Shown here: in pieces, positions 54,318 through 56,983 of the stretch
How the letters are laid out: the number at the start of each line of letters is the position of its first letter
How positions within the stretch are numbered: position 1 is the first letter of the stretch
Assembly (NCBI RefSeq): GCF_008362905.1
Contig: NZ_VFJB01000002.1
Span: 1 to 64,000 of the forward strand
Length of the DNA: 64,000 nt
Reading direction: 5' to 3'
Origin: Deferribacter autotrophicus
GTDB taxonomy: Bacteria; Chrysiogenota; Deferribacteres; Deferribacterales; Deferribacteraceae
Program-made: the position numbers and the translations under genes
Notes under the pieces: model-generated
Databases searched by the model: none
What the model saw: the letters and a program-made list of their open reading frames with translations, nothing else
What the model was told of the DNA's origin: nothing

Positions 54318-54689
54318 TTAAACAAGAGCTGTTTCTTCTTTTCTGATAATCCTGTTCTTCTCATCCACTTGTATTACAACAGGTCTCAAATCTTTTAGCT
54401 CTTCCTCATCATATAAACCATAGGATACAATTATTACCATATCTCCTGGTTGCACCATTCTTGCTGCAGCACCATTCAAACATATTTCTCCACTACCTGG
54501 TCTTCCTTCAATGGTATAAGTAGAAAATCTTGCACCATTTGTAATATTGTAAATATCTACCTTCTCATAAGGTAAAATACCTGCAGCATCCATCAACTCT
54601 TTATCGATGGTAATACTACCTTCATAGTGTAAATCTGCATCTGTCACAGTAGCCCTGTGAATTTTTGACTTAAACATAATTCTCTTCAT
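54318..54689 (-). CDS. panD: Aspartate 1-decarboxylase
   Basis: A 123-residue pyruvoyl enzyme making beta-alanine from aspartate. The self-cleavage site is intact: Gly24-Ser25 in [10 protein letters not shown]. The start ATG 54689 is supported by GAGGTG eight bases upstream and by the cleavage residue falling at its usual position; the upstream TTG (54701) would shift it by four. YGLYDEEEL is the conserved C-terminal region. Last gene of panB-panC-panD; its start codon begins just after the panC stop. Confidence 0.96.
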
Positions 54690-54690
54690 A

Positions 54691-55536
54691 TCACACCTCA
54701 AATATATTATTATCTATTAATCTTGCCTTTCCAACAAAAACAGCTAAAGCTAAAAGAAAAGGCTTATTTATCACATCCAACTTTTCCAAAGTTTCAGGAT
54801 CTACAATTTCTATATAATCAATCTTCGTGTAAGGATGTGAACTTATAAACTCATGCACTCTTCTCTTTATTTCACTAACATCTCTAACCCCTTCATCAAG
54901 GGCAGCTTTAACCACATCAAAAGATTTGTTTAAACTTAAAGCTGATTTTCTCTCATCATCACTCAAATAAACGTTTCTTGAGCTCATAGCAAGCCCATCA
55001 CTCTCTCTCACAATGGGCATTCCAATTACTTCAACATCCATATCAAGATCTTCCACAAACTTTTCTATCACCTTTAACTGCTGATAATCTTTTTTCCCAA
55101 AATATGCCCTATGAGGCTTAACAATATTAAAAAGCTTTGTCACCACAGTGCATACACCATCAAAATGCCCTGGCCTACTTGCACCACAAAGAATTTCTGT
55201 AATTTCTTTAACAGAGACCTTTGTCAAAAATCTATCAGGATACATTTCTTGCACATCAGGATAAAATAATATATCCACCCCTTCTTTTTCCAATAAAGAA
55301 CAGTCCCTTTCGAAATCTCTCGGATATCTGTCTAAATCTTCTTGCGGACCAAATTGAAGCGGATTTACAAAAATACTGACTACTACCACATCATTATCTT
55401 TCTTGGCAGCTCTCACAAGGGATAAATGCCCAGCATGCAGATATCCCATTGTCGGTACAAAGCCTATACTTTTACCTTCTTTTCTGTAATCATCAGAGAT
55501 TTTTTTCATTTCTTTTTTTGTTTTAACAACTTTCAT
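54691..55536 (-). CDS. panC: Pantothenate synthetase
   Basis: A 281-residue ATP-dependent ligase joining pantoate and beta-alanine. The HIGH-like motif is in [15 protein letters not shown] (about 27-41), with [23 protein letters not shown] and the second ATP-loop MSSRNVYLS. Length is normal. It is separated from panB by 15 bases, and its stop codon nearly abuts the panD start. Confidence 0.97.
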
Positions 55537-55551
55537 TTTCCCACCTTATTT

Positions 55552-56364
55552 TTAGAAAAAAGAATGTTCATCATCAGGAAATTCAGAGTTTTTTACATCA
55601 TTCACGTACTTTGTACCACCTTCTACAATTACTCTTTTTACATCCGCATATCTTTTTACAAATTTAGGAACAAAATCATCAAACATTCCGAAAACATCAT
55701 GAAAAACAAGAATCTGTCCGTCACAGTATTTACCTGAACCTATTCCAATGGTAGGCACATTTACTGACTCTGTTATCTTTTTTGCTACATCCACTACCAC
55801 ACCTTCTAAAACAATAGAAAAAACACCTGCTTCTTCCAAAGCCTTCGCATCTTCCAATAATTTTTCACCGCCATCTCTACCCTGTATTTTATAACCGCCC
55901 ATAGCATGAACAAATTGCGGCATCAATCCAATATGTCCAACCACATTGATTCCAGCTTGAGTTATTTTTTTGATTAAAGGCGCTATTTCCTTACCACCTT
56001 CAAGTTTTAGAGCTTCAGCACCTGACTCCTTTATCACTCTCACACAATTATTCAAGGTTTCCTCATCACTCACATGATAAGTCCCAAAAGGCATATCAGC
56101 TACTAAAAAAGCTCTTTTTAACCCTCTTTTGACTGCCTTCGTGTGATAAATAATTTCATCAAGACTAACCCTAAGGGTATTTTCATAACCATTAATTACC
56201 ATACCTAACGAGTCACCCACTAAAACAAGATCCACACCAATTGAATCCACAAGCTTAGCGGAAGTATAATCATATGCAGTGAGACATGCTATCTTCTCAC
56301 CATCTTGCTTCATCTTTTTCAAATGACTAACAGTAATCTTCTTAATCTCTTTATATTTACTCAT
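55552..56364 (-). CDS. panB: 3-methyl-2-oxobutanoate hydroxymethyltransferase
   Basis: A 270-residue enzyme using 5,10-methylene-tetrahydrofolate to make ketopantoate. Metal-binding and substrate residues are in LVGDSLGMVINGYENTLRV and VADMPFGTY; GIGSGKYCDGQILVFHD is the conserved C-terminal part. ATG 56364 follows GAGGTG. It is the first gene of panBCD and is preceded by an attenuator leader, so vitamin B5 synthesis appears to be feedback-controlled at RNA level. Confidence 0.97.
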   Translation of the reverse strand: MSKYKEIKKITVSHLKKMKQDGEKIACLTAYDYTSAKLVDSIGVDLVLVGDSLGMVINGYENTLRVSLDEIIYHTKAVKRGLKRAFLVADMPFGTYHVSDEETLNNCVRVIKESGAEALKLEGGKEIAPLIKKITQAGINVVGHIGLMPQFVHAMGGYKIQGRDGGEKLLEDAKALEEAGVFSIVLEGVVVDVAKKITESVNVPTIGIGSGKYCDGQILVFHDVFGMFDDFVPKFVKRYADVKRVIVEGGTKYVNDVKNSEFPDDEHSFF

Positions 56365-56379
56365 CCTATCACCTCATAC

Positions 56380-56482
56380 AAAAAAAAAGCCTTCCGGCGG
56401 TGACCGGAAGGCTATTTATATGCAACAATTCCCTATTGTTTCTCTATAGCCGTCTCGGTCCCGCCAGGGATCCAAGCGCCAT
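56380..56482 (-). promoter_or_regulatory. panB leader: riboswitch-like transcription attenuator (pan-motif candidate)
   Basis: Read on the minus strand from 56482. A hairpin domain has outer stem ATGGC with GCTAT, an internal loop (GCTT opposite GAGACG), inner stem GG-A-TCCC with GGGACC (one bulged A) and a UGGC loop. The same GGCTAT (56446-56451) can pair instead with ATAGCC (56410-56415), which is part of the terminator stem. The terminator is AGCCTTCCGG/CCGGAAGGCT (56388-56413) followed by a 9-base T-run. The three pairings are mutually exclusive, the logic of a riboswitch. Location before panB fits the known pan RNA motif; membership is not verified. Confidence 0.72.
56388..56413 (-). terminator. 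Attenuation terminator in the panB leader
   Basis: A perfect 10-bp G+C-rich stem with a 6-base loop, followed on the minus strand by nine T residues, ends just 16 bases before the panB ribosome site. Full termination here would silence panBCD. Confidence 0.85.
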
Positions 56483-56487
56483 GATTA

Positions 56488-56515
56488 AGCATATCCATTT
56501 TCTTTTATTTGTCAA
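56488..56515 (-). promoter_or_regulatory. Sigma-70 promoter of panBCD
   Basis: Minus strand: perfect TTGACA (56510-56515), 16-base spacer, TATGCT (56488-56493). The predicted start falls at about 56481, exactly where the leader hairpin begins. Confidence 0.75.
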
Positions 56516-56519
56516 CAAA

Positions 56520-56771
56520 AAGATCATTCTGGAGTCACCCCAAAATTCACAAAATAACATTTTCTAATACAGAGGAAAATATTTTTCGGGTTTAGGTTTC
56601 CAAAAAATCGCCATGGATGGCGATTTTTGAGAAATCTGCCTCGCAAGTGGCACCGGACGTGCCACGAGAATGAGAAAAATGTTTTCCTCTGTATTTAGTG
56701 CGTAACATACTGATAATACTCATAAAATTACTGCTCTTTTACAAAAAATGGGGTGACTCCAGAAAGATCCT
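56520..56771 (+). mobile_element. Structured inverted-repeat element, copy A
   Basis: The 236-base body (56528-56763) is bounded by perfect terminal inverted repeats TTCTGGAGTCACCCCA (56527-56542) and TGGGGTGACTCCAGAA (56749-56764). The flanks AAGATCAT and AAGATCCT agree at 7 of 8 and may be a target duplication. Inside, a 22-bp stem (one G-T pair) encloses two hairpins, one with perfect arms AAAATCGCCA/TGGCGATTTT and loop TGGA, the other GTGGCAC/GTGCCAC. No protein is encoded. It sits just upstream of the panB promoter. Confidence 0.75.
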
Positions 56772-56983
56772 CTGGCATCACCCCGATTTTTGCAAATTCC
56801 CTTATTCACACAAATTGAGGAAATACATTTTTCAGGCTCAAATGCCCATAAAACCTCCACGGACGGCGGTTTTAGAGGCATTTGCCTCGGAGCTTCTACT
56901 AGATGTAGAGCGAGAGTGAGAAAAATGTATTGCCTCAACTTATTACGGACATTTATAAATGATGAAAAAAAGAGTAACTTGAA
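56772..56983 (+). mobile_element. Structured inverted-repeat element, copy B (adjacent to copy A)
   Basis: It begins CTGGCATCACCCC. The outer stem TTGAGGAAATACATTTTTC pairs with GAAAAATGTATTGCCTCAA at 18 of 19 positions. Inner hairpins occupy the same places as in copy A but with different bases: CAAATGCC with GGCATTTG, and an apical CCACGGACGG. The right terminus has decayed (GAGTAACTTGAAAAAGAT against GGGTGACTCCAGAAAGAT). It lies in the same orientation eight bases from copy A. Confidence 0.7.

Follow-up and report, generated by a model that had tools for sequence, protein, structure and literature searches.

A single-hairpin pan RNA in the panBCD leader of Deferribacter autotrophicus and its predicted role in transcription attenuation

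The panBCD operon of Deferribacter autotrophicus, for synthesis of pantothenate (vitamin B5), is preceded by a leader in which a compact hairpin is followed by an intrinsic terminator, which raises the question of what the hairpin is and whether it governs the terminator. The window analysed was the whole stretch of 64,000 nucleotides (contig NZ_VFJB01000002.1, positions 1 to 64,000), and both leader and operon lie on its minus strand. The features are as follows.

56488..56515, minus strand: predicted promoter, sigma-70-type TTGACA-16-TATGCT, 10 of 12 consensus matches
56452..56477, minus strand: pan hairpin core GCUUGG-A-UCCCUGGCGGGA-CCGAG-A-C, placed by alignment to the second hairpin of RF01749, covariation and its occurrence once per genome at panB
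56446..56467, minus strand: antiterminator 5′ strand CUGGCGGGACCGAGACGGCUAU, comprising pan loop, pan 3′ strand and GGCUAU, in duplex with 56415-56394
56394..56415, minus strand: antiterminator 3′ strand AUAGCCUUCCGGUCACCGCCGG, comprising terminator 5′ arm, loop and start of the 3′ arm, from folding
56380..56413, minus strand: intrinsic terminator, 11-bp stem (56413-56388) and T-run, from sequence; described as strong
55552..56364, minus strand: panB (ketopantoate hydroxymethyltransferase), open reading frame with relatives in 38 of 45 Deferribacterales genomes
54691..55536, minus strand: panC (pantothenate synthetase), open reading frame identified by sequence and operon position
54318..54701, minus strand: panD (aspartate decarboxylase), open reading frame identified by sequence and operon position

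The sequence-only reading of this locus had proposed a consensus promoter that starts the RNA at the hairpin. This was borne out: the -35 box TTGACA is perfect, TATGCT agrees with consensus at four of six positions, and the -10 box ends about 10 nt ahead of the hairpin core, which puts the predicted RNA start near 56482. The predicted transcript would carry AUGGC at its 5′ end, followed by the pan hairpin. Promoter-like sequences were found at the matching position in most relatives of families f1, f3 and f6. Just upstream of the panB promoter lie two MITE-like structured repeats with inverted ends (window 56522-56769 and 56806-56946), with fold z scores of about -8.5 on both strands; a 421-bp query from this region had 57 matches in the D. 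autotrophicus genome.

In its original description the pan motif is a stem that carries two conserved bulged A and lies ahead of pan genes, in tandem in most members (Weinberg et al. 2010, PMC2864571). A cmscan of the window against Rfam returned no family at threshold. Under relaxed settings RF01749 (pan) reached 19.6 bits against a gathering threshold of 36.2 (E = 0.13 for 100 nt), a low score explained by a model that consists of two tandem hairpins, only the second of which is present here. Its second hairpin matched the leader base for base along its full length, including both bulged A, while the first had no counterpart in the leader, its place being occupied by the predicted promoter. 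The alignment to RF01749 suggested in the sequence-only reading thus succeeded for one hairpin and fell short of the family cut-off. Weak matches to Qrr, PyrR, the L10 leader and other Rfam families lay far below their cut-offs and mostly reflected the terminator.

The two bulged A, at 56471 and 56453, are on opposite strands with five base pairs between them. The hairpin had been described as having one bulged A and a purine-rich internal loop; the hairpin stands, and the irregularities are better read as two cross-strand bulges. Alone, it folds at -18.1 kcal mol-1 (z = -2.5 against shuffles), and for the whole leader z = -4.6. RF01749 and this leader share the two bulged A, the core bases and the position before panB, panC or panD, here with panBCD directly downstream; they differ in the tandem arrangement usual for the family, which the published text states for most, not all, members. 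By the published description, therefore, the leader hairpin is, judged from its sequence, a pan RNA. It had been left as either a divergent pan member or a new class; alignment to the second hairpin of RF01749 supports membership, and the leader is a single-hairpin variant of the known orphan motif, not a new class.

Related Deferribacterales supported this identity. In three f8 genomes, which are close relatives, tandem pan RNAs scored above threshold (47-49 bits), with second hairpins at panB that have the same core. For L004-L006 the apparent tandem matches to Rfam seem spurious, since what would be the first hairpin lies upstream of a TTGACG...TATACT promoter. The core is almost letter-identical in the panB leaders read from f1, f2, f3, f6, f8 and f7/g7, and matching leaders were also found in Denitrovibrio, Calditerrivibrio and Deferribacteraceae records. 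A variant hairpin was found in one of two f5 panB leaders, and the core was absent from those read in f7/g11, f7/g14 and f4; that f7/g11 makes PanB without the hairpin counts against the regulatory reading developed below. The core pattern occurs a single time in this 2.5-Mb genome, at panB, and once in most genomes of the order, always at panB apart from matches in four (G017, G026, G035 and G037), whose second matches lie inside coding sequence and are hence not leaders. A reversed-pattern control gave zero matches in the D. autotrophicus genome and its relatives.

In a wider search of 257 Gb, 95 stretches had the exact subtype GCTTGGATCCN3-6GGACCGAGAC, against about 2 expected by arithmetic, in about ten phyla (Deferribacterota, 'Deltaproteobacteria', Chloroflexi, Clostridia, Methylomirabilota, Acidobacteria, Spirochaetes and others), with panB, panC or panD downstream at 69 of 80 readable loci; a scan of viral contigs for the core gave no matches. 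A covariance model built on the single hairpin (R1) found matches in 58 of 350, 90 of 297, 85 of 299 and 4 of 296 genomes of four sampled phyla. Bacillus subtilis also has a pan RNA. At eleven loci (L082, L088, L104, L120, L126, L134-L136, L149, L150 and L152) an upstream coding frame (...QYYVPLGS) seems, as read by eye, to extend at its 3′ end into the hairpin, in which case the RNA would sit within a longer transcript.

Covariation in homologous panB leaders had been named as a check of the reading, and covariation was found. Among 100 R1 hits from other phyla, an alignment fitted to the R1 model in which the arms align without gaps, 98.5% of pair cells were canonical and both sides changed at 8 of 11 pairs. 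None of 500 shuffles reached these covariation values, and sliding the partner by 1-3 columns lowered pairing to 46% or less. In a model-free alignment of 42 sequences the pair below the lower bulge, in columns left free by the search pattern, also covaried (CG 20, UA 10, UG 7, AU 2). Both bulged A were invariant in 100 of 100 aligned hits and a U-G wobble inside the stem was kept in 99, which suggests sequence-specific recognition.

Conservation of this kind bears on whether the terminator might be controlled by translation of a leader peptide. A 12-codon frame, MALGSLAGPRRL, is open at window 56482-56444 and its start codon, at 56482, coincides exactly with the predicted RNA start. We rejected this explanation as very improbable: the start codon is not conserved, being replaced by GUU in a same-genus leader and having no equivalent there in other relatives, the frame has no run of regulatory codons, and conservation tracks base pairs and bulges.

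Single hairpins are common among these RNAs. A relaxed descriptor picked up a second hairpin upstream at 17 of 80 loci (2% background) and at 30 of 100 loci; the split is approximate, as the descriptor misses some tandems (L239, L270 and L278, called single, exceed the Rfam tandem cut-off) and probably yields some false positives. Of the 70 'single' loci 16 have a sigma-70-like promoter whose end falls 2-16 nt ahead of the hairpin, as does 1 of the 30 'tandem' loci, compared with 2.4% in shuffles. At threshold RF01749 recovered just 3 of 20 sampled R1-hit loci, and many single-hairpin leaders are therefore probably unannotated.

How the hairpin could act on the terminator was addressed by folding. 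The hairpin's closing GGCTAT (56451-56446) had been proposed to capture ATAGCC (56415-56410) of the terminator stem. This pairing is present, but it is only the end of a much longer, near-continuous antiterminator of 22 nt by 22 nt, 56467-56446 with 56415-56394, with a duplex energy of -35.5 kcal mol-1. When the growing transcript was folded, the antiterminator was the minimum free energy structure at 76-96 nt, and the pan hairpin and terminator prevailed once the terminator 3′ arm was complete; the T-run begins at nt 97. By computation, then, the leader combines a conserved domain with a mutually exclusive antiterminator and terminator, as in an attenuator.

In the D. autotrophicus leader the pairing of the pan 3′ strand with the terminator 5′ arm was stronger than with shuffled arms (z = -4.1, p = 0.002). 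The same held in f1, f2, f3 and L015 (p = 0.002-0.03), and the comparison was non-significant for L014, L016 and g7 L034. With the pan loop included, leaders paired more strongly with their own terminator than with swapped ones (permutation p = 0.00025, an optimistic value whose true counterpart is less extreme because the leaders are related and lack independence). The pan loop varies by lineage, being for example GGCA or GACA in f8, and the terminator varies in step, to UGCC or UGUC.

The switch logic with a terminator was found in four families of related Deferribacterales. The f6 leaders have no terminator, and most of them enclose the ribosome site and start codon of panB in a hairpin. 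In five of these leaders (L012, L018, L022, L023 and L026), opening of the pan hairpin allows its 3′ strand to capture downstream sequence of the ribosome-site hairpin; the swap was absent from the minimum free energy folds of L019, L020, L024 and L025. Where this translational platform works, a formed pan hairpin would correspond to OFF, the same polarity as the terminator version. The polarity had been proposed as OFF from the D. autotrophicus sequence, and folding together with the platform in several f6 leaders backs it. In the f5 leader L068, the upper stem of the hairpin is rewritten (CUUA/UAAG), and the hairpin lies immediately next to GAGG, the likely ribosome-binding site.

A leader without regulation, in which a plain terminator allows constant read-through and a stable 5′ hairpin protects the mRNA, would account for the strong terminator and the stable 5′ hairpin seen here. 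We consider it improbable, given near-invariant bases, including the two bulged A, across about ten phyla, an antiterminator matched by lineage, and a core that is kept where a ribosome-site hairpin replaces the terminator as platform.

The preferred reading, to which we assign a probability of about 0.84, is that the single-hairpin pan RNA represses panBCD by transcription attenuation. With abundant end product, binding of a factor to the hairpin would keep the pan 3′ strand occupied, the terminator would form and panBCD would be off. When the factor is scarce, the pan 3′ strand would pair with the emerging terminator arm, the antiterminator would form and polymerase would continue into panBCD. 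Most likely the factor would be CoA or an intermediate close to it (pantothenate or phosphorylated forms of it), acting directly or via a sensing protein. The explicit antiterminator and the translational counterpart in relatives would be additions to the pan motif described here.

The signal was approached through the linked genes. By probe matching, the first gene downstream of the 100 R1 hits was a DUF2520 oxidoreductase at 46, panC at 20, panB at 14, coaX at 4, an ECF-type ATPase at 4 and panD at 2, with 10 matching none; where the DUF2520 oxidoreductase came first, panB, panC or panD mostly came next. Homologues of panC and panD were present at many other pan loci. Pfam identities at linked genes included CoaX with a BioY-type protein, ECF components, BirA, an SBF/BASS transporter, Peptidase_S58, an OPT transporter, and SIS or HUMPS-RraA proteins. 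BASS proteins are presumably linked to ketopantoate import (PanS), and we take Peptidase_S58 to be linked to beta-alanine release (DmpA/BapA). Joint repression of synthesis, import and pantothenate kinase would fit an end-product signal, CoA or a neighbour, and the set of linked genes argues for such a signal rather than pantoate or beta-alanine. The HUMPS/SIS and Phosphonate-bd linked genes are without an obvious pantothenate role, which counts against this explanation.

Whether the metabolite binds the RNA directly is a matter of closer balance: direct binding is given about an even chance, and binding through a protein somewhat less. In the latter case the same switch would be operated by an RNA-binding protein, with the metabolite sensed by that protein or not at all, a serious contender at somewhat under even odds. 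The discoverers of the motif suggested a protein as binding partner, dimeric given the simple tandem hairpins (PMC2864571). In favour of a protein, the hairpin is very small and at L068 lies directly beside the likely ribosome-binding site, like translational repressor sites. On the other side, many loci are single-hairpin, so that there is no need for a dimer in contact with two hairpins, and the protein would need to occur in about ten phyla. PanB and PanC are unlikely to be the general RNA-binding factor, because both were undetected in RNA-carrying genomes: PanC in six draft genomes whose sole RNA found adjoins transporter genes (G059, G060, G061, G064, G065 and G066), and PanB in four of these six. 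Mini-ykkC, once a weak candidate made of very small, simple stem-loops, proved to be a metabolite riboswitch (guanidine-II; PMC7266159). That likeness is one of working only; its structure and linked genes differ from those of pan, with no evidence of common descent.

Direct sensing by the RNA leads to a more tentative proposal, which we hold at slightly longer odds than the protein alternative: that the pan hairpin, at 26 nt, ranks with the smallest natural aptamers and directly senses CoA or a pantothenate-pathway intermediate, and that its single form is common but mostly escapes Rfam. No ligand for the pan motif is named in the open-access literature searched from the 2010 paper onward, and a 2022 review lists CoA as a cofactor without a known riboswitch (PMC9971707). 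The single-hairpin leaders offer a test system reduced to 26 nt, with termination as an output that can be read.

Several linked loci deserve separate mention. A hairpin precedes a Phosphonate-bd substrate-binding protein gene at L083 and L138, in two Anaerolineales genomes in both of which panC was undetected. ECF-type transporter ATPase genes follow the hairpin at L133, L084, L107, L201-L203 and L214, mostly in Spirochaetes; panC was undetected in three of these genomes, and the ECF-type transporters may thus be pantothenate importers. At L254, L298, L294, L290, L304, L301 and L288 the hairpin precedes SIS-domain and hexulose-phosphate-synthase-type genes (HUMPS, some fused to RraA). No literature link between pantothenate and hexulose phosphate enzymes was found; our guess is that these genes supply the one-carbon unit for PanB. 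Finally, at L210, L223 and L224, and by gene spacing at L212 and L217, the hairpin lies ahead of a Peptidase_S58 (DmpA-type) gene, after which comes DUF2520, and we would guess that the peptidase is a source of beta-alanine at these loci.
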